Origin: Sphaerisporangium sp.
Lineage (GTDB): Bacteria; Actinomycetota; Actinomycetes; Streptosporangiales; Streptosporangiaceae
DNA length: 44,834 nt
Assembly (NCBI GenBank): GCA_025964675.1
Contig: JAOPYI010000017.1
Location: 1 to 44,834 of the forward strand
Reading direction: 5' to 3'
The position numbers and the translations under genes are program-made. The notes under the pieces are model-generated. The model saw nothing but the letters and a program-made list of their open reading frames with translations, had not been told where the DNA came from and made no database searches. How positions within the stretch are numbered: the first letter of the stretch is position 1; each line of letters starts with the position of its first letter. Below, in pieces: positions 26,673 through 42,104 of this stretch.

Positions 26673-26681
26673 CGCGTCTCC

Positions 26682-27287
26682 GTGCGCGCACGGCACCTGA
26701 CGCGGGGCGACATGCTGCTGTGCTTTCTATTCATTCTTTCCATGCCGCACACTTGGCCCGTGATCGAACCATCTCAGCCGCACCCCCTCACGGCACCCCC
26801 TATGCGAAGGTTCCTGGCCAACGTCATTGATTCGCTGCTCATCTGGATCCCCGTGGTTGTTGGCGGCCTCTTCATATCGGACTATCTCGGGATTACAGAT
26901 GACTCCTCGTATGCCAACCCATGGGGCACCACTCCTGCCCTCTGGGCCCTCACCGGGGCCGAAACCGTTGTTGTGGTCCTATATTTCGGGGTCTGCCACG
27001 CTCGTTGGGGACGCACCATCGGTAAGCTCGCACTTGGAACGAAGGTCATTTCCCTTGCCTCAGGGGAACCACCGCCCTACGGTCAGGCGGCTTTGCGAGC
27101 CCTCTTCTTCATTGGTGCCCCACTGGTCCCTCTCATCGGCTGGCTGGCGGCCTCGGTTGATGTTGTTTGGCTGTGCTTCGACAATCGTCGCCAATGCCTC
27201 CATGACAAGGTCGCACGAACGATCGTGATCACAAGCCCTCGCCGCAGCAAGCTTCAGGTTCCGTTCGGGGAGAGCCTTGACCGGTAG
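26682..27287 (+). CDS. RDD family membrane protein
   Basis: 201 aa from GTG 26682; ATG 26712 and ATG 26802 are alternatives and the true start is unsure. The RDD domain begins MRRFLANVIDSLLIWIPVV (conserved Arg and Asp), continues with GRTIGKLALGTKV, and ends with RRQCLHDKVARTIVI. Three membrane helices belong to the domain; an N-terminal hydrophobic stretch (MLLCFLFILSM) would add one if the upstream start is used. RDD proteins are small membrane proteins of general unknown function, some linked to ion transport. Its stop codon sits in a hairpin shared with the convergent subtilase. Confidence 0.82.
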   Translation: MRARHLTRGDMLLCFLFILSMPHTWPVIEPSQPHPLTAPPMRRFLANVIDSLLIWIPVVVGGLFISDYLGITDDSSYANPWGTTPALWALTGAETVVVVLYFGVCHARWGRTIGKLALGTKVISLASGEPPPYGQAALRALFFIGAPLVPLIGWLAASVDVVWLCFDNRRQCLHDKVARTIVITSPRRSKLQVPFGESLDR

Positions 27288-27297
27288 CCGCCTACCG
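27282..27297. terminator. Mini-hairpin containing both convergent stop codons
   Basis: CGGTAG (27282-27287) and CTACCG (27292-27297) pair around CCGC. The TAG of the plus-strand RDD gene and the TAG of the minus-strand subtilase form the two arms. The 6-bp stem is weak as a terminator, but no other hairpin lies between the genes. Confidence 0.35.
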
Positions 27298-29202
27298 CAC
27301 AGTGAGGGTCACCGTTGCCCGGTGGTTGAGCGGTCCCGAGACCCCCGTGACGATCAGGGTGAACGTCCCACGGACGGTCGATGAGGTGGTGCGCACGGTC
27401 AGCCGCGAGGTCCCCGGCGCTGCGATCGGGGTGGCGGAGAAGGTCGCCGTGGACCCGGACGGCAGGCCGCTCGCCGACAGCGACACGCCCCCGCTGAAAC
27501 CGCCCGCCACAGAGACCGACACGGTGGAGCTCGCAGACCCGCCCCGGAGGACCGACAGGGTGGCGGGGCTCGCGGAGACCGCGAAGTCCCCGGCGCTTAC
27601 CACGAGCACGACCTGCGTGGAGTGGCTGAGGCCCCCGCTGCTCCCGGTGATCGTCAGGGGGTAGCTGCCCGGAGCCACCCCTGCCGGGGTGGACACCGTC
27701 AGCTGCGAGCCGCCTGATCCCGAGACGCTCGGGATCGTCCACGCACCGGTCGCACCGGCGGGAAGACCGGTGACCGACAGCGCCACCGCGCCGGTGAAGC
27801 CGTTCATCGCTCCGACCGCGGCGGTGTAGGTCGCGCTACCGCCCACGAGCGCGGTCCTCGACGACGGGGTGACTGCCAGCGTGAAGTTGGGCGCGGACGC
27901 GAGCCAATGGTAGGCGGCGAGGGCGTCGAGCCTGCCGTACCCGTAGTCGTTGTCGAGACCCGCCGCGCCGAGATCCGCCGCGCCGTTCTGCAGCGCGGCC
28001 GCCTGCCGGTCGGCGTCCAGTTCGGGGTAGGCGCTCAGGAGCAGCGCGAGGGTGCCCGCCACGTGCGGTGCGGACAGCGACGTGCCCGAAGCGACCGTGT
28101 AGAGCCCGTAGAGGTCCGTGGTCCTGATGCTCACCCCGGGCGCGGTGAGGCGTGGAGCGGCCGCCCCCGCGCAGGGAGAAGGCCCGCGCCCGCTCGACGG
28201 GTCTAGCACGTCGGCGTTGTCGGTGGCGCCCACGGCGAACGCCTCCGCGTTGTTGGCGGGGGCGTAGACCGATCCCGCTGTCGGCCCGAAGTTCCCAGCG
28301 GCGAACACCGGAAGGATGCCCGCCGCGCGCAGGTTCCGCAGGTCGAGCTGGAAGTCAAGGGCGCAGCCGGCGGAGGAGCCGGTCCACGAGTTGTTCAGGA
28401 CGTCGGGCACGTCGGCGGTGTCAGGGTTGCCGTCCGGATCCAGCAGCCACTGCATGGCGAGGTGGATGCCGCTGGCGGTGGCTGTTCCCCGGTCGTTGAA
28501 GATCTTCGCGGCGATCCACTTCGCATCTGGCGCCACGCCCACGGTGGTGCCGCCCGCGTCGCCGCCGACCATGACGCCCATGGTGGCAGTGCCGTGGCCG
28601 CTCACGTCGGTCGGCGTGTTCGGGTGCTCGCCGTTGGGGTCGTACCAGCTATTGGCGCCTCCCCGGTAGCGGCCCGCGAGGTCGGGGTGGGTGGCGTCGA
28701 CGCCGGTGTCCAGGGTGGCCACAACCACCCCCTGCCCGCGATATCCGAGGTTCCACAGCGCGGGGGCACTGACCCGCGCGACGTTGGGCTCCGCCGGGAC
28801 GGTGGACGTCGCGAGCACAGGCGCCTGGATCTTCAGGTCGGGCCGGACCTCGCGCACCTCGGGTCGCGCCGCGAGCTCCGAGAGCACCGACCGGGTGGCG
28901 GTCACCGCGACGCCGTTCATGATCCACAGCGGTGTCATGGCCGACACCAGTCCCTGGGAGTGCCGGGCACGCAGCAGCGAGAGCAGGCTCCTCTGCCCGG
29001 CGTCGGCCCGCGCTCGCAGCGCCCGCTCCAAGGCGGCCCTCCGCCTGTGCAGCCCGGGCTCCTTGATGCCGTCCGGGTCCACCTGGTCCTTGAGCACCAC
29101 GATGGCCGGCGTCATGGGATCGTCCCGTACGGCTCCTCCGGCCGGGGTCGCCGGCATCGCGACGACGAAGGCGAGAAGACTGATCGCGAGTGCGCGTTTC
29201 AT
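27292..29202 (-). CDS. Secreted subtilisin-like serine protease (S8) with two Ig-like repeats
   Basis: 636 aa from the ATG at 29202, five bases after the CopCD stop; the long open frame upstream is a shadow of that gene. A signal peptide (1-23) and an I9-type propeptide (about 30-125) precede the S8 domain with catalytic D165 (TLDTGVDATHPD), H203 (SGHGTATMG), oxyanion N304 (AAGNFGP) and S375 (SGTSLSAPHVAG). GTSLSAP replaces the commoner GTSMAAP but keeps the nucleophile. Two repeats of about 95 residues (from about 440 and 540) each carry a Gly-rich GGSA strand and LPAGATG/LPSGSTA turn, like bacterial Ig-like surface modules. Last gene of the copper-oxidase operon; it may mature or degrade the neighbouring secreted proteins. 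Confidence 0.9.
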   Translation of the reverse strand: MKRALAISLLAFVVAMPATPAGGAVRDDPMTPAIVVLKDQVDPDGIKEPGLHRRRAALERALRARADAGQRSLLSLLRARHSQGLVSAMTPLWIMNGVAVTATRSVLSELAARPEVREVRPDLKIQAPVLATSTVPAEPNVARVSAPALWNLGYRGQGVVVATLDTGVDATHPDLAGRYRGGANSWYDPNGEHPNTPTDVSGHGTATMGVMVGGDAGGTTVGVAPDAKWIAAKIFNDRGTATASGIHLAMQWLLDPDGNPDTADVPDVLNNSWTGSSAGCALDFQLDLRNLRAAGILPVFAAGNFGPTAGSVYAPANNAEAFAVGATDNADVLDPSSGRGPSPCAGAAAPRLTAPGVSIRTTDLYGLYTVASGTSLSAPHVAGTLALLLSAYPELDADRQAAALQNGAADLGAAGLDNDYGYGRLDALAAYHWLASAPNFTLAVTPSSRTALVGGSATYTAAVGAMNGFTGAVALSVTGLPAGATGAWTIPSVSGSGGSQLTVSTPAGVAPGSYPLTITGSSGGLSHSTQVVLVVSAGDFAVSASPATLSVLRGGSASSTVSVSVAGGFSGGVSLSASGLPSGSTATFSATPIAAPGTSRLTVRTTSSTVRGTFTLIVTGVSGPLNHRATVTLTVR

Positions 29203-29207
29203 CCGGT

Positions 29208-30869
29208 TCAACCGACGCTCCAGGTCATGGGCACTTCCAGGCGCGCCCCCGCGCGATAGACGACGACGGTCAGCCGGACAGGCCCGAGGAGTTCCAGCGA
29301 GCCGGTGCCGAAGTAGCGGCCGGGTTCGAGCTGCCGCAGCACGGTCCCGCCTTTGGGGAGCTCCAGTGCGACGCCATCGATGGGCGCGGGCGCAGGGCGC
29401 CGCGAGCTCGCGGCGGTCACCGTGAAGCCGTTGACACCCGCCCGGTTGGGGCTGACCGAGACCCCGATGACCAGGTCCGCCACGGTCGCGCTGCCGCTCC
29501 GCGCCACCGCCGGCGTCACGGCCGGCCGGCGGGACGGGCTGGTCTCGGCGAGCACCCCGGCCGCGAGGAGGAGCACGGCTCCCGCGGCCACCTCGATGGC
29601 CACCAGCCGTCCCGACGGCCGGGAGCGGAGGGCGTTGGCCAGCCCCAGCGCGGCCACCGTGGCGACGATCCCGCCCTTCACCAGTAGCGTCCTGCCGTAT
29701 GGCGAGTCGAACAGAGCGCCGGGCGACCCGAGCTGGCCGGCGGCGTGGAACAGCCCCGTCAGCCCGACCATGACCGCCCCGGTCAGCGCCAAGCGGGTGA
29801 ACGGGGCCCGGTAGGCGCGCACGAGCGCCAGGCCGTGTCCCGAGCGCGCCGCCAGGAGGACGCCGAGCGCCGCGACCGAGCCCAGCCAGAGGCACGCGGT
29901 GAGGATGTGGACGGCGTCGGCTGCGATCGTCAGGCCGCCGAGGGCGGCGGCATGCCCGCCCCACGCCTCGGCCGACACCGCGACGATCACCGCCAGAACG
30001 GCCAACGGTGTCACGACGGAAGCCCGCCTCACCAGGAACGGCGCTCTGCCAGGCGCCGTCAGAGGCCTGCTGACAGGGCCCATCACAGGCACGGCCATCG
30101 GCACCGGCACGGGCACGGGCACGGGGGCGGCCACAGGTCGGAGGGACATCGAGTGGCGCAGGGCGAGGGCGTACACCGCTAGGACGGCCAGCGCGACCGT
30201 CCTGACAAGCCAGAGCCGCCCCCACTGGGTGGCCAGCGGCTTGCCGGCGAGCTCGACGAGATCGGCCGCCACCCCCAGTGTGGCGCAGGCTGCCGCCAGC
30301 GTGACCAGCCGGCGCCTGGCCGCCGCCGGCCACAGAGGCGGCACCAGCGGCACGACCCGGCGCAGGATGAGCCCGGCCATCGCCAGGCCGCCGACCAGCC
30401 CGGCGAGCAGGCACAGGCGCGCCCATCGCAGGGCCACGTCGAACGGCCCCGGCCCGGAACCGCCGGAGGGGTCCACCACGGCTGAGGGCACGGACCCTAT
30501 GGTGAAAAGCAGGACGCCGTCGGTCGTGTGAGCGTCGTCCTCGGAGATGACCCGCCAGGCGATGCCGTACGCGCCGATGGCGAGGCGGGGAAGCTCGACG
30601 GTGAGGCGGTCTCCCCGCGCGGTGGACCGGGCGCCCCTGAGGACGCGGCCGGAGCCGTCTACGAGCCGCGCGGAGCTGAACCGCGGCGCGATGCGCTCGC
30701 TGAACGTCAGGGCGGCGACGCGCGGAGCCTCGGCCAGCGCCGAACCGTTGATGGGGTCGGACTCGACGAGGTCGGCGTGCGCCCTCGCCGGCGACGCCCA
30801 CAGCACCGCGGCGAGGACCGCTGCGAGGACCGCGAGCACCCCGGACGCGATCCTATGAAACAGGGACAT
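29208..30869 (-). CDS. CopC-CopD fusion, copper-binding and membrane copper protein
   Basis: 553 aa from the ATG at 30869, overlapping the upstream gene by 17 bases. The signal peptide ends ASPARA, so the mature protein starts with H31 (HADLVESDP). With D112 and H114 of EDDAHTTDG, that His would make the copper histidine-brace of CopC. The CopC fold spans 31-125. From about residue 145 on, eight hydrophobic helices form the CopD domain, with conserved His/Trp in the outer helices (VHILTACLWLGSVAALG, TGLFHAAGQLG). A periplasm-facing C-terminal beta domain of about 100 residues follows. It should bind Cu(II) outside and pass copper across or along the membrane. Its place among oxidase genes suggests copper supply for them. 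Confidence 0.92.
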   Translation of the reverse strand: MSLFHRIASGVLAVLAAVLAAVLWASPARAHADLVESDPINGSALAEAPRVAALTFSERIAPRFSSARLVDGSGRVLRGARSTARGDRLTVELPRLAIGAYGIAWRVISEDDAHTTDGVLLFTIGSVPSAVVDPSGGSGPGPFDVALRWARLCLLAGLVGGLAMAGLILRRVVPLVPPLWPAAARRRLVTLAAACATLGVAADLVELAGKPLATQWGRLWLVRTVALAVLAVYALALRHSMSLRPVAAPVPVPVPVPMAVPVMGPVSRPLTAPGRAPFLVRRASVVTPLAVLAVIVAVSAEAWGGHAAALGGLTIAADAVHILTACLWLGSVAALGVLLAARSGHGLALVRAYRAPFTRLALTGAVMVGLTGLFHAAGQLGSPGALFDSPYGRTLLVKGGIVATVAALGLANALRSRPSGRLVAIEVAAGAVLLLAAGVLAETSPSRRPAVTPAVARSGSATVADLVIGVSVSPNRAGVNGFTVTAASSRRPAPAPIDGVALELPKGGTVLRQLEPGRYFGTGSLELLGPVRLTVVVYRAGARLEVPMTWSVG

Positions 30870-31362
30870 GTTCCACCTGCGCGTCGCCCAGCAGCACCGT
30901 GACCTCGCTCCCCCGGTGCACCCAGTTGCCGGGGTTCTCGAAGACCAGGTAGTAGGTGACCGCCGATTTGTACGTGCCGGTGTGCGCATGGCCCATGTAA
31001 AGGTCCTTGACGACGACTCCGGAGGCCTCGTCGATCAGAAGCGGCGGGGTGGCGGCCTCGTGCACCGCCTGCGCCTTACCGGGGTCCAGCACCTGGTAGC
31101 GCACGTCGACCAGTCCCCCGGCACCGCTCACCGACACGCGCACGAGCCGGACTCCGGTCCGGTCCGGCAGGCGCTCCGCCGAGACCGACGGGCGGTCGAG
31201 AGCCGGCCGCGCCTGGGCGGGGGCCGTAGTGGCCGCGCCGGACGGCCCCCACACGGGGGTTCCTCCCGCCGCCACGGCCAGGACGGCGGCGAGCACTCCC
31301 AGCCGCAGCGTGCGTCTGCTCCTCGCCCAGGCCGGGAATCTCCCGGCATCCGGCTCGGTCAC
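30853..31362 (-). CDS. Small exported protein of unknown function in the copper-oxidase operon
   Basis: 169 aa from the GTG at 31362, joined to the upstream oxidase-like gene by a GTGA overlap. A basic N-terminus and one hydrophobic helix (about 19-38) indicate a signal anchor or uncleaved signal peptide. The rest is a single predicted beta domain with an MGHAHTG motif (about residue 121) and VHRGSEVTVLLGDAQVEHVPV near the end. The His/Met cluster would suit copper binding, but I know no family for it. Context between oxidases and CopCD points to metallation or assembly of the secreted oxidases; this is inference only. Confidence 0.7.
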   Translation of the reverse strand: MTEPDAGRFPAWARSRRTLRLGVLAAVLAVAAGGTPVWGPSGAATTAPAQARPALDRPSVSAERLPDRTGVRLVRVSVSGAGGLVDVRYQVLDPGKAQAVHEAATPPLLIDEASGVVVKDLYMGHAHTGTYKSAVTYYLVFENPGNWVHRGSEVTVLLGDAQVEHVPVS

Positions 31363-32255
31363 GGCACCTGGATGAAGGTCAGCATGGTCTGGTGGAGCTG
31401 GCGGTTGTAGAGGGGGAATCTGGTGCCCGAGGCCGGGATGGTCACCACGGCGTCCTCCGTCCCGCCGGCCGGGATGGTCTCCGCGGTGGCGTCGAACGGG
31501 TTGGCCAGCGGGCGCGCATCCCGGGCGAGCACCCGCTCGTACGCGCCGAGCAGCCGCATCGAGGTGTTGTCGAAGCCCGCGTTCAAGTAGCGCAGCAGCA
31601 CCTTGGTCCCCGGCGCCACCCCGTGGACGGGATCGGTGTCCGGGTAGGCCTTGCCGTTGATCAGCCAGAACTTCGGCGCGTAGTGGTAGAGATCGGCGGT
31701 GGCCGGCGCGGCGTTGAACGCCGGGTCGATCGCGGACAGCACCAGCAGCGCCTCGCGGTCGTAGGCGGTGGTGGCCGAGCCGTACGCCTGGCCCGCCGCC
31801 GGCGGGCGCACGACGAGCGCGCCGTACAGCCCCATCGGGAGCTGCCGCTCGGTCCCCTGGTAGAGGTACGTGCCGGGGGCGGAGGCGGTGAACGTCGCGG
31901 TCGCGGTTCCGCCCGCCGGGGCGCTGACCCCCGCGCCCTGGCCGAGGGCCAGCCCGGGGACTTCCAGCGAGACCGGGGTGGTCAGAGTGTTGTGCACCAC
32001 GATCGAGACGGCGTCGCCCTGGTCGACCGAGAGCACGGGTCCCGGCACCGACGGCGTCACGCCCGCGCACGAGCCGCCGGAGCCCGCGAGGGCGTACCCC
32101 CAGATGTTCGCGGTGACCGGGCCGGGGAGCGTGAGCGTGCCCGCGGAGGCGCACAGGTCGATCGAGACGTTGGCCGCACTCGCGGGCGAGGCCGGAAGTG
32201 TCAGGCCCGCCGCGATCAGGATGAGCACCAGGGTTCTGCGCATTCTCGTCCTCAC
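31359..32255 (-). CDS. Cupredoxin-fold protein without copper ligands (multicopper oxidase-like C)
   Basis: 298 aa from the GTG at 32255 (GTGA overlap); an ATG at 32243 is an alternative. Residues 1-27 are a signal peptide. Two cupredoxin-like domains resemble its upstream neighbour: GPVLSVDQGDAVSIVVHN, GTYLYQG..., MGLYGALVVRPP, FWLINGKAYPDTDP and the C-terminal PLYNRQLHQTML. At the places where multicopper oxidases have HxHG and HxH, this protein has LEVPG and YQGTE, and the second-domain HPxHxHG is replaced by TSMRLLG. It is therefore probably a structural or regulatory paralogue and not an oxidase. Confidence 0.8.
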   Translation of the reverse strand: MRTRMRRTLVLILIAAGLTLPASPASAANVSIDLCASAGTLTLPGPVTANIWGYALAGSGGSCAGVTPSVPGPVLSVDQGDAVSIVVHNTLTTPVSLEVPGLALGQGAGVSAPAGGTATATFTASAPGTYLYQGTERQLPMGLYGALVVRPPAAGQAYGSATTAYDREALLVLSAIDPAFNAAPATADLYHYAPKFWLINGKAYPDTDPVHGVAPGTKVLLRYLNAGFDNTSMRLLGAYERVLARDARPLANPFDATAETIPAGGTEDAVVTIPASGTRFPLYNRQLHQTMLTFIQVP

Positions 32256-33928
32256 GGCGCGTCGTAGGTCAGCTTGAGCAGGTTGCCCTGCGTGACGAAG
32301 TTGCCCGTCGTTCCGGTCGTCAGCACGCGCACGCGCACCTTGCCCGAGTTGGCGCCCGTCCCGATGAAGCCGGACTCCGGTGACGGAGGCGTCCGGGTCA
32401 CCGTGACGTCCGAGGTGCCGATGCCGGTCGCGGCCCCCATCTGGACCCACGTGCTGGTGGACCACTTCCACATCCACAGCGTGGTGGGCAGGGCCGCGAT
32501 CGAGTTGCGGCCGGTGTAGGTGACGGCGAGGCCCGTGGACCCGCCCGGCACGCCGGCGAAGCCGCCGTACCAGTCGGCCGTTCTCGTGCCTGTGGTCGTG
32601 GAGTTGACCTTGTAGTAGGCGGTGTCCGCCGCGGCCAGGTCGGTGGCGGTTCCCGAGTTGAGCGTGCCGGCCAGGATCGAGGCGGTGCCGGCGGGGGCCA
32701 TGCAGCCACCGGGCGGGTCCACCCGCAGGAGGGTCGCCATGCCGCCGAAGCCCGCGTCGTAGTTGGTGAACTCGTTGAGCGCGTGGCTGTGCCAGGGGAA
32801 GTACCACTCGCCGCAGATGTTCTGCGAGACGGTGCCCACGGGCAGGGTGCCCTTCGACCCGAGGTAGGCACTGCCGCTGGACCAGGTGTTGCCGTTCTTG
32901 AAAGTCAGGTTCCGGTAGTCGGGCGAGGCCACCGAGGCGGGGAACGGGTTGCTCCCCGGGTTCCACGAATCCTGGTCCTTCCAGGAGAACAGGTAGTCCT
33001 CCGTCTGGCCGGAGCCGATGGTCGCAGCGAAGTGCTCGCTCGAGGCGTCCCCTCCGCCTGGGGTGCGGAGCGCTCTCCCGTCCTGGGCGACCTCCTTGAT
33101 GTGGTTCCCGTGCGGATGGAAGGGGTGGTTGACGGTCCCCACGTTCGCCATCCGGATCAGCGCGGGCAGCGGGTTGCTCGTCGCGTTGTACGGCTTGACG
33201 CGGAGGAGCGAGCCGTACGGCTGCCCGGGCAGCCACGACACTCCGTTGTCCTGGAGGGTGTCGGGGAACTGGCGCCCATTGATCGCGAAATAGCGGTTGT
33301 GCAGCTGGTTGAAGTCGTAGGCGCCGCCCGTCTCCACGGCATGGTGGAGGTCCGGGTCGATGTCGCTGAGCAGAACCAGGTACTCCCGCTGCGGGTCGAA
33401 ACGGGTCGCCGCGTCGTAGGCGTAGTCCGGATGGCCGGCCGGGCGCACGATCAGCGCTCCGTAGAGGCCCATCTCGATCTGCTTGGACGGGTCGCTTCCG
33501 CTCTCGTAGATGTACGTCCCTGGTTGCGACGCCGTGAACGTGTAGGTGGCGTCACCGCCCGCGGGTGCCTCGTCGGCCAGCAGCCCGGCGGTTCCCGAGC
33601 CGCCGACCCCCAGCTGGCCGGGGAAGACCATCGATACGGGCTCGGTGAGGGCGTTGTGCAGGTGTACCGTCACGCTGTCGCCCTGGTTGACGCAGAGCAC
33701 CGGGCCGGGGCTCTGGAACTGGCCCCCGGTGGGCGCGTAGCTCCACATCAGGACGCTGTTGCCGTCCGGGGTCTCGATGTACCCCGGCGTCGCGGTCAGG
33801 TCGAAAGTGGTGCCGTTGGTGCAGACGATCCCCTGGCGGGGGATCGCCGGCGCCTGTGCCTGCGCGCTCGGCGCGAACGCGACCAGCAGCGCGGCGGCGG
33901 GCAGGAACGCCCGGAATCCCCTATGCAT
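32252..33928 (-). CDS. Multicopper oxidase-like protein B with the second half of the copper site
   Basis: 558 aa from the ATG at 33928, overlapping the upstream gene by eight bases. Signal peptide about 1-24. The first cupredoxin domain (30-165) lacks ligands (VSMVFPG, YESGS). The second has a perfect NHPFHPHG motif (H268, H271, H273), then EWYFPWHSH (H380, S381, H382) and a Met at 397. In laccases the corresponding HCH supplies the type-1 Cys; here the codon is AGC, Ser. After residue 405 a domain of about 150 residues resembles a beta sandwich (GTLNSGTATDLAAADTAYY) of surface proteins. As encoded it can supply trinuclear-site histidines but no type-1 copper, so it needs a partner if it is an oxidase. 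Confidence 0.85.
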   Translation of the reverse strand: MHRGFRAFLPAAALLVAFAPSAQAQAPAIPRQGIVCTNGTTFDLTATPGYIETPDGNSVLMWSYAPTGGQFQSPGPVLCVNQGDSVTVHLHNALTEPVSMVFPGQLGVGGSGTAGLLADEAPAGGDATYTFTASQPGTYIYESGSDPSKQIEMGLYGALIVRPAGHPDYAYDAATRFDPQREYLVLLSDIDPDLHHAVETGGAYDFNQLHNRYFAINGRQFPDTLQDNGVSWLPGQPYGSLLRVKPYNATSNPLPALIRMANVGTVNHPFHPHGNHIKEVAQDGRALRTPGGGDASSEHFAATIGSGQTEDYLFSWKDQDSWNPGSNPFPASVASPDYRNLTFKNGNTWSSGSAYLGSKGTLPVGTVSQNICGEWYFPWHSHALNEFTNYDAGFGGMATLLRVDPPGGCMAPAGTASILAGTLNSGTATDLAAADTAYYKVNSTTTGTRTADWYGGFAGVPGGSTGLAVTYTGRNSIAALPTTLWMWKWSTSTWVQMGAATGIGTSDVTVTRTPPSPESGFIGTGANSGKVRVRVLTTGTTGNFVTQGNLLKLTYDAP

Positions 33929-35117
33929 ACGTCTCCCCCACCACGGTCTGGGCCGGCAGCGGCGAACCCTGGTACACCCTGACCTCCGTCACCATGCCGC
34001 CGAGTCCAGGGGCGCCGCGGTTGGACAGGCGCCGGAAGTCCCGGTTCTTGAACAGGTAGGCGTTGTAGGACCCGCGCGCGTCGGCCGCCACCGGCGCGCC
34101 GGGGTTGAACGGCGGTGCGGTGAACAGCACGTCCCGCGCCTCGCCGGGTCCGATGTACAGCGTGTTGGCGACGTACGGCGAGCTACGTGGCGTCGCGTCC
34201 TCCCCGACGACTTTCAGCGGGATGCCCGGCAGTTGCATGGCGTGCTGGAGGTATCCGAGGTTGGCCAGCCGCAGCAGCACCCGGTCCCCCGGGTTCACCT
34301 GGATGAGCGACGACACCGGCTGGTAGGGCAGCGAGGGGTGGTTGTTGGGCAGGATCGTCTGCGGGTAGACCCGGCCGTTCAGCGTGAAGTACTGCGGGTC
34401 GTAGTCGGTGAAGATGAACTCCTGGATCTGCTCGTCCGCGTCGTGCTCCCGCTCCTCGATCTCGTTGAGCAGGATCGCGAAGTGCCGGTCGTACGCTGTC
34501 GAGCCGTCCCCGTCGTTGTAGGCATAGGTCGTGGTGCGGTGCAGCGGGTCCGGCGCCGAGCTGCCGTCCTGGGCCGGCCGTACGAACACGATGCTGGTCA
34601 TGCCCATCTGCACGTGCTCGACGTCTTCGAAGTGGCAGTGGTACATGTACGTGCCCGGGTTGTGCGGCCGGTAGAAGTAGGTGAACTGCCGCTGGATCGG
34701 CACGCCGACCGACGCCTCAGGAACTCCGTCGAACAGCGCGGTCGGCGTCCGGAAGCCGTGCCAGTGGATGGTGTGGGAGTCGACGAGGTCCGGACGCCCG
34801 ACCAGCCCGAGGTTGGTCAGCGTGATGTAGATGTCGTTGTCCTGCTTGACGTCGAGGATCGGCGCCACGTGCTGCGCCTTGCCCTTGTAGTTCGTGACCA
34901 GGTCGCTGACGGGCATCGCCAGCGGGACCGCGGCGAACCCGAAGATGTACAGCGGCGCCCTGCCGGGGAGGGTGATGTGCCCATCCGTGCCGGCGAGGCC
35001 GATCCTGGCCTCCGGGTTGGGTACGGCTTCCGCCGTGCCCTCCAGGGCTCGCCCTCCGATCAGCAGGCCGCCGGCCAGGGCTCCCGCCTTGAGCAGGTCC
35101 CTGCGTTTCATACTCAT
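33921..35117 (-). CDS. Two-domain multicopper oxidase-like protein A with type-1 copper site, Tat-exported
   Basis: 398 aa from the ATG at 35117 (ATGA overlap with the giant gene). Residues 4-20 contain a twin-arginine signal KRRDLLKAGALAGG. Domain 1 has SHTIHWHGF (H115, H118, H120) and MYHCHFEDVEHVQMGM (H160, C161, H162, H168, M171/M173), a full set for type-1 copper and half of a trinuclear site. In domain 2 the expected HPxHxHG is only LQHAMQLPG, and the last HxH is missing (FKNRDFRRLSN). Two-domain oxidases normally complete the trinuclear site at subunit interfaces, so a partner with the other half is required; the downstream gene encodes one. Tat export fits folding with metal before secretion. 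Confidence 0.88.
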   Translation of the reverse strand: MSMKRRDLLKAGALAGGLLIGGRALEGTAEAVPNPEARIGLAGTDGHITLPGRAPLYIFGFAAVPLAMPVSDLVTNYKGKAQHVAPILDVKQDNDIYITLTNLGLVGRPDLVDSHTIHWHGFRTPTALFDGVPEASVGVPIQRQFTYFYRPHNPGTYMYHCHFEDVEHVQMGMTSIVFVRPAQDGSSAPDPLHRTTTYAYNDGDGSTAYDRHFAILLNEIEEREHDADEQIQEFIFTDYDPQYFTLNGRVYPQTILPNNHPSLPYQPVSSLIQVNPGDRVLLRLANLGYLQHAMQLPGIPLKVVGEDATPRSSPYVANTLYIGPGEARDVLFTAPPFNPGAPVAADARGSYNAYLFKNRDFRRLSNRGAPGLGGMVTEVRVYQGSPLPAQTVVGETYA

Positions 35118-38100
35118 TGCACCTCGTCCGCACCGAGATCGAAGGGAAGGGGGATGGGGAGGATCGGGCGCGTCTGGCCGTCGAAGTCGACGGTGGGCGC
35201 CTGGATGGCGTTCAGGTCCAGAAGGGCCGGGTAGCTGGAGTACGTGGGTCCCTTGTTGATCGCGGGCGAGCCGTTCGCGAGGTGGTAGTTGCCGGTGAGC
35301 CCCACGGGCGGGTCCTGCCCGGTGATCGTGACGGAGGCCATCTGCGGGTCGTTCCGCGAGCCCGCGACCGCCAGCTCCAGCGTGTACGGCAGGACGAACT
35401 GGGGATCCTGACCGATGATGTTGCCTTGGCCACCCGGGAGCGGATGGTCCGTACCGTCGGACCCGCGGATCACCGCGGCGGTCAGCAGCGAGTACCGGGG
35501 GGTGAAGGTGTCGGCTCCGCTGGTCGTGCCGTGGACCTCCAGGTCGATGAAGCCTTGGGAGACGAGCGTCGCCCCGGGCCCATGCTGGCTGAGGGTGAAC
35601 GCCTCGTTATGCCAGAAGATGTTGTCGAACAGCGCCACCGGGTTGGAGAACTTCGCCGACCCCGCGGGCAGGGTCGCCTGGAAGAGCGGGTCGTTCGCCT
35701 CCGCCGCGAGGCCGGCCGAGTGCGGCGTGGTGTCGCAGGTCTCGCAGGAGGCCGTGGACACGTTGTTGGCCACCGTGTTGGCGACGATCGCCACGTTCGA
35801 CGAGTCGTCCAGCATCAGGCCTCCGGCGAGGTCGGCCGCCCCGTTGTCCACGATCATGTTGTTGCGGATGTTGACGCGGGCGGTGTGGGCGTTCTCGACG
35901 AAGACGCCGCCGCCGTCGTCTCCGGAGTAGTTGGCCTGGATCAGGTTCCGGTCGATGTCGACGTTGCCCGAGCCGTCGCCCACCGGGGTGCTCCCGTCGG
36001 GCAGCGGCCGGGGGATCTCCTGGGCGATGCTGATGGCGGCCCCGGAGGTGACCGAGTCGTTGTAGTAGATCTGGTTGTCGTGGATGGAGCCGCCGGGTGA
36101 CAGGCCCCAGTGGGAGATGCCGCCGCCGTACTCGAACCCGAAGTTCCCGCAGACGACGCTGGAGGCCACCTCGTAGTTGTTCGAGCCGCGGAAGATGCCG
36201 ATGCCACCCGAGCGGGTCATGCCGCCGCTGCCCATGATCCGGTCGTTGGCGATGCGCACACCGGTGTTGTGGCTGTCGTAGTACGGCTGGCCGACGCCGA
36301 TGGCCCCGGCGAAGAGTCCGCCGTCGCTCTCCAGGATGTTGTTGGTGATCTGCAGGTTGGCGGCGTACGCCTGGAGCTGGATGCCTCCGGCCCCCTCGCC
36401 GTGGCCGGTGGTGATGCCGATGCCGTCGATGCGCGCCGCCCCGAGCCCACTGGGGAACGCGGTGGTGGTCTTGGCCGCTACCGTGATGCCCGCCCCTTCC
36501 AGGACCGGATGCGCGGCGTTGACCCCGGCCAGCGAGCCGGCCGTGGCGAGCGTGGAGGCCCAGGCCGTCTTGTTGTCCTGGAAGAAGCGGCCGTCGATGA
36601 CCGTGCCCTGGATGTTGAACCTCGGATCGTCAGGCGCGCGTTGCTGCGTCTCGCTGGATCCGACGAGGCCGCCCGAGCCGAGACCCTGGAGGATGAGCGG
36701 CTTCCAGAGGAGGACGTTCTCGTGGTAGACGCCCGGCTGGAGCACCAGCAGGCTTCCTGCGCCGGCCGCGTTCACGGCGTTCTGGATGGCGTTCGGAGTG
36801 GTCGGCGCCGCGACGTTCACGACCGCCGGCTGGTAGTTCACGCCGCCAGAATTGCCGCGCACGTGAACGGTCAGGCCGTTGGGCGTGGGGACGCCCGCGG
36901 AGGTGCGGACAGTGAGCTGTTTCGGCCCCGGCCGGATCTGGGTGGCCAGGATCCCGACCACCGGGACCCTGATCACGACCTGGCGGTTGCCCCAGCTGAC
37001 GATGCCGCCGTTGGCGATGGTCAGGACGCGGGTCTGGCCGGCCGCAGGATCGCCGAGGACCACGGAGCCCGTGGCCGTACCGAAGAAGTCGCCCTGGACG
37101 GTGATCTGCCGCGTCGCCGCGGAGTCGCCCGCGGTGACGTACGGCTTGGACACCTGCAGCAGCTCGGGCGTGTTGACCGCCAGCTCGCAGGCCTTGCCGG
37201 AGATCGGCACCAGTGGCGTGTCGAGCTGGTCCACCAGTCCCGGCCACACGTCCCAGGCGAAGCTCTCCGTGAGGTAGTTGGGGTTGTAGGTCGCGTTCGG
37301 GTGCGCCTTGTCACCCGGATCGTTGACGACCACGACGTACATTCCGGGACAGGGGCCCTGCGGGATCGGGCAGTTGAACGTCTCGGTCGAGGGGAGCAGC
37401 GCCTCGTAGGCGCCGACCTCGCTCGTTAGGACCGTTGTGATCAGACGCCCGGTGTAGTCGCGGATCCCGATCGGGATCTTGCCGATCGGGCGCGGCTCGC
37501 CGTACCAGATCGACTTGGGGTCGCGGTCGAAGTAGACGTCGTCGGAGACGAGCCCGACGATGCGCCCCGGTTCCGCGACGTCCGGACCGTTCTTGAAGTC
37601 GGTCATCATGAAGAAGTCGGCGTTGGCGTTCTGCTTGTTCTGCAGCACGACCAGGCGCTTGTCGCACAGGGGCTTGGACGGGCTGGGGCTGACCCCGGAG
37701 TACGGGCTGCGTGAGGTCAGCGTCGACTGGTCGATGACGTGCGGGTCGCCGGTGCAAGCGGGCGGCGGGATGGCCGGGGTGAACTGGGCTCCGAGGTCGA
37801 CGTTGACGTCTTCCTCGCGGACCGGGCGGTACAGGCAGCCGGTGCCGCCGGGCCCACTCACGTACTTCTGCCCTGCGGGGTTGCACGGCCGCGGGTCGTT
37901 CGCGTCGGCCGGCATGACCGCGTGGGTGATGTAGGTGCCGGCCACCAGCGGGACCGGCGCGCTCCCGTTTCCGCACACCGTGTCGCCGTTGGCGGCCAAG
38001 TGGCCGAAGCCCCCGGCCGCCACCGGGCAGTAGTCGGCGAAGGCGTAGCCGCCGTCGAAGGCGGCGTCCTTGGTCTCGTTGCCGGTCGCGGGGACCTCGA

Positions 38101-39997
38101 CGCATTTGGGGCCGATCAGCGGGTTCAGCTGGGCACTGATGTCGTTGCCGTTCTGGTCGACTACGTCGCAGTTCGTGGCGGCCTTCCAGTGGTCGGTGAC
38201 GTACTCGTTCAGCACGACGTCGTCGCCGGTGTTCGGCAGCCCGTCGGGGCCCAACCCTTCCAGCCGCACGGTCACGTCGGGGATCGCGGGCTCGTAGTTC
38301 TCATGGGCCTGCATGCGCGCGTCGAACTCGTTGCGCGTCGTGGCGTAGTAGGTGATGCCGACGATCTGGCCGGGCTCGTTGTTCGCGTACTGGTATTTGC
38401 CCCAGTCGACCTCGCTGCGATGCCCCTCGATGACAAGCTGGTTGGTGAGGAGCCCGCCGCCGACGTCGGTCGGGACACGCGTCACCTGCGTGGGGTTGGT
38501 CTCACTGTGGACGGACGCTCCGGTGGTGCCGAACCGGGCGAAGCCGGTCTCGCCGACGAACCACTTGCCGAGGGGGCCGCCCTCGGCAAGCGTGTACTCG
38601 TACCGGCCCTGCGCGTCAGTGAAGGTCGAGTCCTTGATCGAGCCGTCGCGCCAGCGCTGGTCGAGGTCGGTGTTGGGGATGGCGGGCTCACACGTGGCCT
38701 CGTCGTTGGTGTCGGCGCAGTCGCGTATGCCATTGCCCTTGCTGCCCGCGGGCAGGGCCGCGCCGTTCTGGGCCACACCGGTGTCCTGGTAGACGTGGCC
38801 GGACAGCCAGCCGAACCACCGGGAGACGCCTACGTCGCCGAGGCCCACGCTCTGCCCGGCGGTCACGTCCACCGGCAGGAAACGGTTGATATAGCTGAGC
38901 TGCTCGTCCCAGATCGACAGGATGTAGGAGCCGGGCGGCACGCCCGGGATGGTGAAGTTACCCTCGGCGTCGCCTTGGCCGACGTAGACGGTGTTGTCGT
39001 TGGTGCTGCTGGTCAGGGCGACATAGGGATTCTCGACCGGCTCCTGGAGGGACAGGACCTCGAACGGCGGCCACGCCTTCCAGTTCTTGGCGGTGCCGCT
39101 GATCGACCCGGTGCCCGGAGTGGCGAATTTGGTCGCCGTGCAGACGAACCCGAACCAGTAACCGGTGCGGCGGTCCGGCGCCTCCCAGAGGGCCTCGCCA
39201 GGCGCCCCGACGCCGTCGCTGCCCTCCTCGACGCCGGCCTGGAGGCCGACGCCACCGTCGATGGTGGTGGTCTGCGTCCACCTACCGGACCCGTCGGCGC
39301 CGCAGCTGTCCGGTGGCGTCACGTAGATCCAGTAGGTGGCGGGCCCGAGGTTGTCGATCTGGACGAAACCGTCAGAGGCGGTCCGGCAGTCCCCGCCGCA
39401 CAGGGGACTGTTGTGGTAGTCAACCGAGACCTGCGAGCTGGTCTGATCCTTCAGGGTGACCTGGAAGCCGTCGAGCCCGGCCTCTCCATTGTCCGGCGCC
39501 CCGTTGGCCCATTGGTTGTCGTTGAAGACGAAGACGCGGATCTTGCCGAGCGGCAGCGGATGGGCCGCGCTGGCCTCGGACATGTCCATTCGGACCGTTC
39601 CCGCGTCGCGCGGCAGCGTCACGTGCCTGCCCCACATCTTGTGGTCGGCAGACCTGATCGAGATCAGGTAGCGCCCGTCCGGGAGAGTGATCGTCGGCCT
39701 GGTCTGGTCGCCCTTGGCGACGATCGGGCTGTTGCTCTCAGTGGCCGCGACGCCCGTGCGCAGAGCGGGGTCGGCATCGGCGGGCAGGCGCGTGTTGTCC
39801 ACGTTGACCAGGTACTGGAAGGCCGGCAGCGCCGCGCCGGTGGCCAGGTCGTGCGCCTCCATGGTGATCGAACTGGTCTGCGCCTCGGCGGGCGGCGTCA
39901 CGCTCAGCACGGGAAGCATCCCTGCGACGACGGCGGCGACCGCGACCCACAGGGCCGGACCTGACCTACGGCGACGCGTTCTTCGATCTCCACTCAT
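35114..39997 (-). CDS. Giant secreted protein: SdrD-B/CNA-B-like modules, IPT/TIG domain and right-handed beta-helix
   Basis: 1627 aa from the ATG at 39997. A basic, hydrophobic signal (about 1-40, ending AEAQ) leads to the outside. Modules of the SdrD-B/carboxypeptidase-regulatory type start near residues 152 (IRVFVFNDNQWANG), 394 (LSGHVYQDTG), 543 (GQIVGITYYAT) and 809 (GRIVGLVSDDVYFD). Several have Asp/Asn-rich calcium-like loops (DGLPNTGDDVV). An IPT/TIG Ig-like domain lies near 955-1040. A right-handed parallel beta-helix spans about 1065-1440 (repeats such as NNMIVDNG, GGLMLDDSSNVAIVANTVANN). The C-terminus ends DLGADEVQ as in pectate-lyase-like proteins. No sorting motif or transmembrane tail is seen. 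It heads the oxidase operon and is a candidate scaffold or matrix protein for the secreted copper enzymes. Confidence 0.88.
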   Translation of the reverse strand: MSGDRRTRRRRSGPALWVAVAAVVAGMLPVLSVTPPAEAQTSSITMEAHDLATGAALPAFQYLVNVDNTRLPADADPALRTGVAATESNSPIVAKGDQTRPTITLPDGRYLISIRSADHKMWGRHVTLPRDAGTVRMDMSEASAAHPLPLGKIRVFVFNDNQWANGAPDNGEAGLDGFQVTLKDQTSSQVSVDYHNSPLCGGDCRTASDGFVQIDNLGPATYWIYVTPPDSCGADGSGRWTQTTTIDGGVGLQAGVEEGSDGVGAPGEALWEAPDRRTGYWFGFVCTATKFATPGTGSISGTAKNWKAWPPFEVLSLQEPVENPYVALTSSTNDNTVYVGQGDAEGNFTIPGVPPGSYILSIWDEQLSYINRFLPVDVTAGQSVGLGDVGVSRWFGWLSGHVYQDTGVAQNGAALPAGSKGNGIRDCADTNDEATCEPAIPNTDLDQRWRDGSIKDSTFTDAQGRYEYTLAEGGPLGKWFVGETGFARFGTTGASVHSETNPTQVTRVPTDVGGGLLTNQLVIEGHRSEVDWGKYQYANNEPGQIVGITYYATTRNEFDARMQAHENYEPAIPDVTVRLEGLGPDGLPNTGDDVVLNEYVTDHWKAATNCDVVDQNGNDISAQLNPLIGPKCVEVPATGNETKDAAFDGGYAFADYCPVAAGGFGHLAANGDTVCGNGSAPVPLVAGTYITHAVMPADANDPRPCNPAGQKYVSGPGGTGCLYRPVREEDVNVDLGAQFTPAIPPPACTGDPHVIDQSTLTSRSPYSGVSPSPSKPLCDKRLVVLQNKQNANADFFMMTDFKNGPDVAEPGRIVGLVSDDVYFDRDPKSIWYGEPRPIGKIPIGIRDYTGRLITTVLTSEVGAYEALLPSTETFNCPIPQGPCPGMYVVVVNDPGDKAHPNATYNPNYLTESFAWDVWPGLVDQLDTPLVPISGKACELAVNTPELLQVSKPYVTAGDSAATRQITVQGDFFGTATGSVVLGDPAAGQTRVLTIANGGIVSWGNRQVVIRVPVVGILATQIRPGPKQLTVRTSAGVPTPNGLTVHVRGNSGGVNYQPAVVNVAAPTTPNAIQNAVNAAGAGSLLVLQPGVYHENVLLWKPLILQGLGSGGLVGSSETQQRAPDDPRFNIQGTVIDGRFFQDNKTAWASTLATAGSLAGVNAAHPVLEGAGITVAAKTTTAFPSGLGAARIDGIGITTGHGEGAGGIQLQAYAANLQITNNILESDGGLFAGAIGVGQPYYDSHNTGVRIANDRIMGSGGMTRSGGIGIFRGSNNYEVASSVVCGNFGFEYGGGISHWGLSPGGSIHDNQIYYNDSVTSGAAISIAQEIPRPLPDGSTPVGDGSGNVDIDRNLIQANYSGDDGGGVFVENAHTARVNIRNNMIVDNGAADLAGGLMLDDSSNVAIVANTVANNVSTASCETCDTTPHSAGLAAEANDPLFQATLPAGSAKFSNPVALFDNIFWHNEAFTLSQHGPGATLVSQGFIDLEVHGTTSGADTFTPRYSLLTAAVIRGSDGTDHPLPGGQGNIIGQDPQFVLPYTLELAVAGSRNDPQMASVTITGQDPPVGLTGNYHLANGSPAINKGPTYSSYPALLDLNAIQAPTVDFDGQTRPILPIPLPFDLGADEVQ

Positions 39998-40034: not shown

Positions 40035-40066
40035 AGTTTATGACGGGACTGTCATCCGACTGTCAT
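40035..40066 (-). promoter_or_regulatory. Tandem direct repeat and promoter of the giant protein/oxidase operon
   Basis: On the minus strand ATGACAGTC occurs at 40066-40058 and again at 40055-40047, an 11-bp period as in OmpR/PhoB-type regulator sites. ATGACA (40066-40061) can serve as -35, with CATAAA (40042-40037) as -10 at an 18-bp spacing. The giant gene starts about 40 bases beyond. The adjacent OmpR-type regulator is the obvious candidate to bind. Confidence 0.6.
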
Positions 40067-40168: not shown

Positions 40169-41245
40169 CTAGACGGGGGTTCGGGCGGTCATGGACGCAG
40201 CGGAGACCGGGCGGCCGCCCACCTGATCACGGGAGGTGATCGGGATTCGGAGGGACACGGTCGTCCCCACGCCGATCCGGCCTCTCACGAGCAGCTCGCC
40301 GTCCCACGCCTCGACCACCGCGCGGGCGATGGCCAGCCCGAGGCCGCTGCCCGTCCTGGTGTGGCGTGGCGGCTCCGTCGCCGAGGTGAGGGCGGCGGCC
40401 TGCTCGTCGGTCATGCCGACCCCGTCGTCGGTCACCTCGACCACCCAGGCGTCAGGCTCGGTGAATCCGGACACGGTGATGCGATCCCCCGGCCCGGTGA
40501 ACTTGACCGCGTTCTCAAGGAGGCAGTCGAGCGCCGCCTCCAGCCGCTCGTTGACCGGCATCAGGCCGACGGAGGACCGCACCGACCACACCCGGTTCGC
40601 GCTCGGCTCCCAACGGCGAACGATACGGACCAGCTCGGCGTCCACGTCCCTGAAATCCCTCTGGTAGGCCACGTCGACCTGCATCAGTGTGACCAGCCGC
40701 TCGCTGATGCGGGCCAGCTTGTCCAGCTCCTCGAGGACGATCGTGAGATCGGCCCGAGCCGACTCGTCCGAGACGTCCCTCACCATCTCCGCATAGCCGC
40801 GCGCGACCGTGATCGGCGTGCGCAACTCGTGCGAGGCGAACCTGACGAACAGCTGTTGCCGCTCGGTCCTGCGCCGCTCCGCCACCGCGAGCCTGGCCAA
40901 CTGGGCGAGCGCGCCCTGCCTGCGGCGCACGTGCCACACCATGACCCCGAAGATCATCGACATGAGCGGGACCTCCGAGGTCTCCGCCCAGCCGATCTCG
41001 CCCAGCGCCGCGTTGTGCGCGAAGACGTACCCCGTGCTCATCGTCACGGCGACCAGCGTGAGAACCATGCTCCACGTCTGCCAGATGGTGAAGCCGTAGA
41101 TCAGCGACAGCCCGATCCACACCAGGTGGAAAGGGACCGTCTCCCCACCTGGCAGCGCGTACATCAGCGCGATGTTGACCACCGCGCTCGCCGCCCAGGC
41201 CCCGATGAGAAGCTTGCTAGTCCTCGACGAATCTATAGCCGACAT
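40169..41245 (-). CDS. Sensor histidine kinase next to an OmpR-type regulator
   Basis: 358 aa from the ATG at 41245, overlapping the regulator gene by 29 bases; an earlier open frame exists but enters that gene. Four hydrophobic helices (about 11-105) have almost no extracellular loops, so sensing is probably within the membrane. Phosphoacceptor H139 in ASHELRTPI, N-box CLLENAVKF, G1 VTDDGVGM and G2 TGSGLGLAIA are complete. It lies immediately upstream of the giant protein/oxidase operon on the same strand and should control it. A membrane-embedded sensor fits a metal, redox or envelope signal, but the signal is not readable. Confidence 0.9.
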   Translation of the reverse strand: MSAIDSSRTSKLLIGAWAASAVVNIALMYALPGGETVPFHLVWIGLSLIYGFTIWQTWSMVLTLVAVTMSTGYVFAHNAALGEIGWAETSEVPLMSMIFGVMVWHVRRRQGALAQLARLAVAERRRTERQQLFVRFASHELRTPITVARGYAEMVRDVSDESARADLTIVLEELDKLARISERLVTLMQVDVAYQRDFRDVDAELVRIVRRWEPSANRVWSVRSSVGLMPVNERLEAALDCLLENAVKFTGPGDRITVSGFTEPDAWVVEVTDDGVGMTDEQAAALTSATEPPRHTRTGSGLGLAIARAVVEAWDGELLVRGRIGVGTTVSLRIPITSRDQVGGRPVSAASMTARTPV

Positions 41246-41885
41246 TACGCACCGTTTCCACCCGATTGGGACTGTCGAGTTTGGATCGGAGCCGCCGTAC
41301 ACACACGTCGACGACGTTGCTGCCAGGGTCGAAGATCATGCCCCATACGTCCGCCAGCAGCTCGGTTCGGCTGCACGCCTGGCCGGCCCGGCGCATGAGG
41401 TGCTGCAGGAGAAGGAATTCCCGGAACGAGAGCTCGATCTGGCGCCCGCCGATGGAGGCCCGGTGGAACCGGAGGTCCAGCCGTATCGCTCCCGACCCGA
41501 GCCACCGCTTGGCCGCACCGGGCGCCTGCCCCCGCAGCCGCGTGTGGACCCGGGCGATCAGCTCGGCGACGGCGAACGGCTTGCTCAGGAAGTCCGCCGC
41601 GCCCGCCTCCAGGCAGGCCACCCGGACGCCCACGTCCGACATGGCCGACAACACGAGCACCCGCTGCTCCGGCCGGGCGTCGACGAGCTGTTCGAGCAGC
41701 TGGCTACCGTCCATGCCCGGCAGCATGAGATCCAGCACGACCAGATCGAAGTCCCGGGCGAGCGCCGCGCCGAGCCCTTCGTCTCCGCTGGCCGCCGTGT
41801 CGACGATGTGGCCATGCTCACGCAGTACCCGGACGACGAGCCGAGCGATTCCCTCGTCGTCCTCGACAACCAACACCCGTCCCAC
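41217..41885 (-). CDS. OmpR/PhoB-family response regulator
   Basis: 222 aa from the GTG at 41885 with AAAGGGGG upstream. The receiver has acidic pair E8-D9-D10, phosphoacceptor D52 in VVLDLMLPG and K in FLSKPFA. The C-terminal winged helix (about 125-222) has FREFLLLQHLMRRAGQACSRTELL, VWG, VVDVCVRRLRSKLD and GYRFVED, typical of OmpR-type DNA binding. First gene of the two-component operon. Direct repeats of 11-bp period before the oxidase operon are its likely targets, and a palindrome with related half-sites lies in its own upstream region. Confidence 0.93.
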   Translation of the reverse strand: MGRVLVVEDDEGIARLVVRVLREHGHIVDTAASGDEGLGAALARDFDLVVLDLMLPGMDGSQLLEQLVDARPEQRVLVLSAMSDVGVRVACLEAGAADFLSKPFAVAELIARVHTRLRGQAPGAAKRWLGSGAIRLDLRFHRASIGGRQIELSFREFLLLQHLMRRAGQACSRTELLADVWGMIFDPGSNVVDVCVRRLRSKLDSPNRVETVRNVGYRFVED

Positions 41886-41983: not shown

Positions 41984-42104
41984 CACAACTGAATGACTTG
42001 CCTCCTGCCCCTACCGGCACATCGATAGCCTTCTGACGCTATTCGCCCCATTTTTGACCTAATGAGAGTCCGCGGCAGATGTGGTCGCGGCTCGGAGGAA
42101 GTCG

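Follow-up and report, generated by a model that had tools for sequence, protein, structure and literature searches.

Organization of the O1–O7 gene run

The stretch of DNA analyzed here, hereafter the window, comprises 44,834 nucleotides of the actinomycete Sphaerisporangium sp. (contig JAOPYI010000017.1 of assembly GCA_025964675.1, positions 1 to 44,834) and belongs to a genome of 7.77 Mb. On its minus strand, from 39997 down to 27292, lie seven reading frames, O1–O7, all of which were confirmed. O1 (39997-35114) encodes a secreted giant of 1627 amino acids (aa), our proposed scaffold, and overlaps by 4 bases with O2 (35117-33921), a two-domain multicopper oxidase (MCO) subunit with a Tat-like signal. 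O3 (33928-32252), likewise a two-domain MCO subunit, overlaps O2 by 8 bases and is itself overlapped by 4 bases from the GTG start of the two-domain MCO-like O4 (32255-31359), for which an alternative in-frame ATG at 32243 would leave an 8-base gap instead. O5 (31362-30853), a small exported protein of an unnamed family, overlaps O4 by 4 bases and the CopC–CopD fusion O6 (30869-29208) by 17 bases, and the secreted subtilase (S8) O7 (29202-27292), which carries a C-terminal extension, follows O6 after a gap of 5 bases. The bases of the O3/O4, O4/O5, and O5/O6 junctions were read directly and the remaining junctions were derived from the frame coordinates; together they bear out the overlaps of 4, 8, 4, 4, and 17 bases and the 5-base gap listed in an earlier sequence-only reading of this DNA.

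The Pfam and NCBIfam collections identified a beta-helix in O1 and multicopper-oxidase (Cu-oxidase) domains in O2, O3, and O4, and Pfam placed CopC in O6, with CopD there slightly below cut-off, and subtilase (S8) in O7; no family in either collection matched O5 over its cut-off. The make-up proposed in the sequence-only reading, namely a beta-helix giant, an oxidase-like trio, CopCD, and a subtilase, is thus supported. Among 60 related genomes searched, O3 orthologues at E 1e-140 or better were detected in four of the 10 other genomes of the same genus as well as in the window genome itself, and all four hold O1–O7 complete and in the same order. Because this order recurs in four other genomes of the genus, the gene run is more than a chance assembly. 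One of the four, G005, holds a diverged copy of the cassette, whose best matches to the window proteins are 32–56% identical. We are almost sure that the seven-gene operon exists and is conserved, and an absence of conserved co-localization in relatives, which the sequence-only reading had named as grounds for discarding it, is excluded.

O2, O3, and O4 are paralogues with divided copper ligands

Profile comparison by hhalign revealed that the first domains of O2, O3, and O4 match one another at 98–100% and the second domains at 99.7–99.9%, while first and second domains match each other at no more than 20%, apart from domain 2 of O3 against domain 1 of O2, which reached 83% in one direction. 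By these comparisons, the three proteins are paralogues that each keep the order domain 1–domain 2. In profile searches of the PDB, 3g5w ranked highest for each of them (E 4.4e-25 for O2, 2.9e-19 for O3, and 4.4e-24 for O4), and two consecutive cupredoxin domains were recognized in every case, with a weak alignment for domain 2 of O2. A joint quick tree of 108 rows puts the O2, O3, and O4 families each on one side of a branch; therefore, as far as an unrooted tree can tell, the split among the three appears to be older than the spread of the cassette.

Residue roles were assigned through the alignment with 3g5w together with established knowledge of MCOs. In the printed alignments, the ligand residues of the 3g5w domain 1 motifs (HTIHWHG and YHCHVNVNEHVTMRGM) are matched in O2 only, and those of the domain 2 motifs (HAIHTHGH and MIHDHVDTHTT) in O3 only. 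Domain 1 of O2 contains the type 1 (T1) copper ligands H115, C161, H168, and M173 as well as the trinuclear ligands H118, H120, H160, and H162, and its domain 2 holds no ligands. Domain 2 of O3 supplies the remaining trinuclear half, H271, H273, H380, and H382 (plus H268), with the T1 cysteine absent, and its domain 1 is ligand-free. O4 has copper ligands in neither domain. None of the three polypeptides thus combines a T1 site with all eight trinuclear histidines, the arrangement of a single-chain enzyme.

Across the homologs collected from the loci described below, O2 residues H115, H118, H120, H160, C161, H162, and H168 are invariant in 79 of 79 rows and M173 is found in 78. The O2 of locus L109, outside these 79 rows, presents every ligand by eye and had been missed by the search motif owing to one non-ligand letter; L046, L072, L105, and L115 are truncated where their contigs begin. 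In O3, H268, H271, and H273 occur in 84 of 84 rows, and H380 and H382 in all 82 rows that reach that far. At the lost sites, an HxH pattern was observed in none of 84 rows for the two sites of O3 domain 1, in none of 82 for the four sites of O4 domains 1 and 2, and in 1/79 and 0/79 rows for the two sites of O2 domain 2. An identical ligand split was found in 7/7 Burkholderiales loci retrieved by profile, one of which, L118, comes from the same genome as L077.

The AlphaFold model of O3 has a mean predicted local distance difference test (pLDDT) score of 71.3, with residues 31–320 at 78–98 by blocks, and its structure search ranked 2zwn and 3g5w first, with 2zwn as the best match. A reading of H268-S381-E386 in O3 domain 2 as a converted T1 site was rejected, since 3g5w domain 2 itself has HDH at this position and hence no T1 cysteine. 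O3 further carries a C-terminal extension of about 150 aa (32252-32701, minus strand), which is shared by close kin and by matches in Solirubrobacter and Kribbella and is absent from the G005, Cupriavidus, and Paraburkholderia copies.

Two-domain oxidases form homotrimers in which domain 1 of each subunit meets domain 2 of its neighbor and the trinuclear site sits at this contact, as in 3g5w. Applied to a ring of O2, O3, and O4, this geometry gathers all eight histidines at a single interface and leaves the other two without any, in agreement with the observed ligand pattern. A passage of a published account describes two-domain laccases as mostly active as homotrimers (PMC10707984). We consider a single active site common to O2 and O3 likely, and propose the O2:O3:O4 ring, a heterotrimer with a single composite site, with somewhat less assurance. 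Alternatively, O2 alone might be a T1 blue-copper carrier or homotrimer, O3 a separate type-2-copper protein, and O4 padding, with no shared trinuclear site. O2 does hold a complete T1 site by itself. However, the histidines kept in O2 domain 1 and O3 domain 2 align with the domain 1 and domain 2 motifs of 3g5w (the last O3 segment weakly); H118, H120, H160, and H162 of O2, which have no T1 role and would be superfluous in a pure T1 carrier, are kept in 79/79 rows; and O2 adjoins O3 in the loci that show both, never as one chain. Separate O2 and O3 proteins are thus an unlikely explanation. The sequence-only reading had counted three oxidase-like proteins; they do carry copper-oxidase parts but are most simply read as one oxidase, with its site split over two products and the third ligand-free.

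Distribution of the cassette

A one-genome-per-species scan gave 265 relatives, of which the best 79 loci were examined; together with L031, L032, L035, and L036 these make up the 83 loci counted here, and L034 and L037 were excluded as copies of L038 and L059. All five core genes, O1–O5, are present in 59 of the 83. By eye, the 24 loci short of a core gene include 20 that are cut inside the cassette; L111 and L113 stop 793 and 240 bases past O1, and L075 and L076 seem to be genuinely without a nearby O5. Gene order varies slightly, with O5 set apart in L061, L085, and L091. Pairwise distances among O1–O5 correlate at 0.86–0.94 (51 loci, without an outside control), as expected if the five genes are inherited as one set.

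A tree of O2, O3, and O4 with 77 rows divides into an Actinomycetota/Chloroflexota half of 33 rows and another half of 44 rows, whose records are labeled Pseudomonadota, Myxococcota, Thermodesulfobacteriota, Acidobacteriota, Planctomycetota, or Kiritimatiellota or have no group name. In all, the rows bear eight NCBI phylum names and eight rows bear none; many records are metagenome bins, so individual placements may be wrong. The nearest named row to the window cassette is Sphaerisporangium perillae. The O3 family is rare, being found in 6/296 genomes of an even sample of the class (window genome counted, at most five candidates scored per genome) and in 7/399 of an even sample of the order holding Thiobacillus (centre genome counted, at most four candidates per genome). 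A tblastn search of plasmid records with O2 led to Paraburkholderia and to Cupriavidus metallidurans CH34, both of which encode O2, O3, a fused O4+O1 of about 2700 aa, and O5 in this order; a haloarchaeal match of the same search had no O1, O3, O4, or O5 neighbor.

This distribution bears on whether the cassette is a laccase-like system for soil phenolics. Such a role might be drawn from the nearest solved structures, which are two-domain laccases and oxidases, but the genes are also carried by records named Thiobacillus, Thiomicrorhabdus, and Desulfobulbaceae, in which phenolics would hardly be the main substrates, and we regard it as quite improbable.

The giant O1, its natural fusions, and the Sideroxydans cluster

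O1 is composed of SdrD_B/prealbumin-like and CarboxypepD_reg/fn3_3 modules, followed by a NosD-like right-handed beta-helix and a choice-of-anchor-Q-like end, where the NosD and anchor-Q matches are the weaker ones and some of the module matches fall below the curated cut-offs. A family match longer than 1200 aa was found in 64 of the 76 loci with an O1 match. O4 is joined to the N-terminus of O1 in 22/83 loci, all Gram-negative-type, and O2 to its C-terminus in 6/83, and it is these natural fusions that tie O1 to the oxidase. Fusions of O2 with O3 or of O3 with O4 were found in none of the 83 loci. Twenty of the O4+O1 loci, together with the end-cut L101, L103, and L104, form one clade of 23 rows with a Shimodaira–Hasegawa-like approximate likelihood ratio test (SH-aLRT) support of 100; L105 and L109 are outside the tree.

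A cluster of matching description has been noted in Sideroxydans lithotrophicus ES-1 (PMC5566968, PMC12016527). It comprises Slit_1812-1818, with three tandem cupredoxin proteins, SCO1/SenC, and a cytochrome; the largest cupredoxin protein has adhesin- and polysaccharide-lyase-like domains and lacks MCO motifs, and the trio was more abundant when cells grew on magnetite rather than Fe(II)-citrate (PMC12016527). By description, this layout equals the O2, O3, and O4+O1 order of Cupriavidus, Paraburkholderia, and a bin named Anaeromyxobacter, and the 22 O4+O1-fused loci fit the published text (PMC12016527), whereas in the window the ligand-free and the large parts are separate genes. The paper assigns MCO motifs to each of the two motif-bearing proteins, while we read them as two halves of one site. 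The window version, likened to Slit_1812-1818 by description, differs further in being accompanied by CopCD and a subtilase and in its actinomycete host. The sequence-only reading knew of no described system with this composition; this is only partly right, since a proteobacterial counterpart appears to have been noted already (PMC5566968, PMC12016527).

Accessory proteins

The O5 model is an Ig-like beta-sandwich with a mean pLDDT of 84.5 and without clear kin: no Pfam family was assigned in 58 of 59 members (one gave a weak match), the best PDB profile match had E 0.098, and the Ig-like structural matches were weak, none at E <=0.001. A lipobox-like motif was seen in 10/63 O5 relatives. A role of O5 as a copper chaperone was rejected, as it has no conserved His, Cys, or Met. 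LolA-like proteins are encoded near O5 in 12 Gram-negative-type loci (e.g., L031:25389-27011 and L032), and in L098 a LolA-like protein is fused to SCO1; these proteins possibly take part in copper delivery or surface transport.

O6, the CopC–CopD fusion, likely supplies copper. CopC/CopD matches are present in 25 of the 34 loci of the Actinomycetota/Chloroflexota half (L035, L036, and L038-L069) and in 0/49 of the others. SCO1-like genes lie near 13 loci and MofC-like cytochrome/periplasmic-binding proteins near nine, none of them in the Actinomycetota/Chloroflexota half. Subtilase matches were found in 23/34 loci of that half and in 14/49 of the others, counts that may include a second neighboring subtilase. 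CopCD and the subtilase, which the sequence-only reading had included in the set, are thus present in the window but behave as lineage-dependent accessories rather than as core members. Upstream of the cassette, type II secretion genes were observed in a few loci (a secretin by Pfam at L107:2544-4853), and pilin-like starts were noted by eye in L031 and L116; the type II secretion genes may serve the export of cassette products.

The fusions of O1 to O4 or O2 (28/83 loci) and the presence of subtilases are also what would be expected if the oxidase cross-linked or matured O1, or some polymer of the cell surface, and the subtilase did the processing, in the assembly of a surface layer. Against this, a subtilase was not found in 35 of the 49 other-half loci, some of which are cut short, and the induction of the Sideroxydans cluster on magnetite points to a mineral, and we find surface-layer assembly rather unlikely.

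Regulation and flanking genes

A sensor histidine kinase (40169..41302, minus strand) and an OmpR-type response regulator (41217..41885, minus strand) are encoded upstream of O1. The 171-base gap ahead of O1 contains ATGACAGTCggATGACAGTCccGTCAT, with an 11-base period; this tandem repeat, ATGACAG-N4-ATGACAG-N4-GTCAT (40040..40066, minus strand), is a possible response-regulator box, as tandem repeats of such kind suit OmpR-type regulators. The repeat recurs before O1 in L035, L036, L038, L039, and L040; the G006 and G008 copies each differ by one mismatch. When up to one mismatch was allowed, the window genome held the two direct copies once and the reversed control nowhere, and the only exact copies found were those preceding O1 in the window genome and in G003. 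The kinase/regulator pair adjoins O1 in L034/L038, L037/L059 (divergent), L039, and L040. In G006 and G008, the best relative of the regulator is 53% identical and is encoded far from the cassette, and G005 has the pair but a cassette without such a repeat. One-mismatch copies, one each, were also present in four of six cassette-free genomes of the genus, and the control matched in 1/10 genomes. A two-component system dedicated to the operon is weakened as a candidate, since the pairing is not constant, G005 lacks the repeat, and copies occur in cassette-free genomes; a regulatory role of the neighboring pair may nevertheless be proposed, and for the window and G003 a shared regulator is plausible.

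These neighbors bear on a further alternative, namely a copper-resistance operon in which an extracellular cuprous oxidase and CopCD are controlled by a copper-sensing two-component system. CopC/CopD belongs to the operon and to most loci of the Actinomycetota/Chloroflexota half, and O2–O4 are weakly similar to copper_res_A. However, the NCBIfam copper_res_A model (TIGR01480) gives them 49, 52, and 41 bits where 479 would be required, which places them outside CopA/PcoA; CopC/CopD is missing from the matches in the other half; and the sensor has membrane segments but, by eye, lacks a large outside domain. A conserved 1600-aa scaffold is not known to be part of such operons. Copper resistance is accordingly not a likely function.

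Beyond the response regulator, and divergent from it, lies a second secreted subtilase (42081-44063, plus strand), with a relative at the same place in L038 and L039. On the other side, a small membrane protein, RDD family-like by eye (26673-27287, plus strand), converges on the end of O7 with 4 bases between. A secreted collagen-like protein (24444-25367, plus strand) with a long GXY-repeat tract (GADGKDGAKGDTGAKG...) is striking in an actinomycete.

A proposed split, scaffold-tethered multicopper oxidase

Taken together, O2, O3, and O4 would be three paralogous two-domain subunits of one extracellular MCO, held on the O1 scaffold with O5 as accessory, a model that we consider moderately probable. 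In the proposed mechanism, O2 domain 1, with the T1 copper and four histidines, would meet the four histidines of O3 domain 2 to form the working site; the other two ring interfaces would bring together ligand-free halves only, and O4 would close the ring and connect it with O1. The T1 copper of the O2 subunit would take up electrons, which would then reduce dioxygen at the shared site, with copper supplied by CopCD or, in some Gram-negative relatives, SCO1. The substrate would most likely be a metal or mineral surface, for example Fe(II) or Mn(II); oxidation of metals or minerals is a role that we put forward tentatively, at somewhat short of even chances. The sequence-only reading had proposed a copper-dependent oxidation machine outside the cell and a matrix-like giant protein in the set, and the conserved unit does look like such a system, with the giant as scaffold.

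Several known systems flank this model. 3g5w (Nitrosomonas) and 2zwn (metagenome laccase) have the two-domain fold and ligand motifs of the cassette subunits but hold all ligands in one chain type, whereas in the cassette two products divide the ligands and the third has none. Ceruloplasmin and other six-domain MCOs likewise possess six cupredoxin domains and one trinuclear site between two of them, yet ceruloplasmin is one chain and the cassette three. MofA (Leptothrix) and OmpB (Geobacter) are proposed extracellular metal oxidoreductases, several with SCO1 and MofC-type cytochrome neighbors (PMC5566968). By description, they resemble the cassette in this proposed role and in such neighbors; they are, however, single large polypeptides, while the cassette oxidase would be split over chains, and among the loci no reading frame held both motif sets. 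In its fullest form, our proposal is a heteromeric MCO in which one product carries the T1 copper and half of the trinuclear site, a second carries the remaining half, and the third is a pure pseudo-subunit, which would be a natural intermediate between homotrimeric two-domain and single-chain six-domain (ceruloplasmin-like) oxidases, tethered to a scaffold, present in about eight phyla, and oxidizing extracellular metals or minerals; we judge this whole to be evenly poised. Neither a split-site or heterotrimeric reading nor an actinomycete version appeared in the titles and abstract openings covered from the open-licence literature.

Several points weigh against the split-oxidase model. The scan loci were picked by DNA patterns over the O3 ligand motifs, so that O3 conservation arises partly by construction; the O2 rows (78 loci plus the window) were also motif-selected, and the profile-found set is small, at seven loci. 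The O3 HSH aligns with the HDH of 3g5w in a separate weak segment of 2.9 bits, insignificant alone, the O2 domain 2 segment is weak against 3g5w (14.4 bits), and near H380 the O3 model has low confidence (blocks with pLDDT 54–69). O5 was not found near the L075 and L076 cassettes, loci that extend well beyond the core, and in L035 and L036 the cassette has no adjacent kinase/regulator pair. Among the carriers are members of groups regarded as anaerobic (Desulfobulbaceae, Geothermobacter), in which dioxygen reduction is not an obvious role. The link to Sideroxydans goes through the papers' descriptions rather than sequence, and expression need not mean function; in the open-licence literature covered, no substrate is named for any actinomycete.

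What an annotation would list as three copper oxidases becomes a testable model of one split enzyme, which would represent a living heteromeric stage on the route proposed to lead from two-domain copper oxidases to six-domain ones. For a cluster reported mostly from Burkholderiales (PMC12016527), the analysis identifies a core that several phyla have in common. Should solid Fe(II) or Mn(II) prove to be the substrate, a copper-based way of oxidizing minerals outside the cell would be added that Gram-positive soil bacteria could use.

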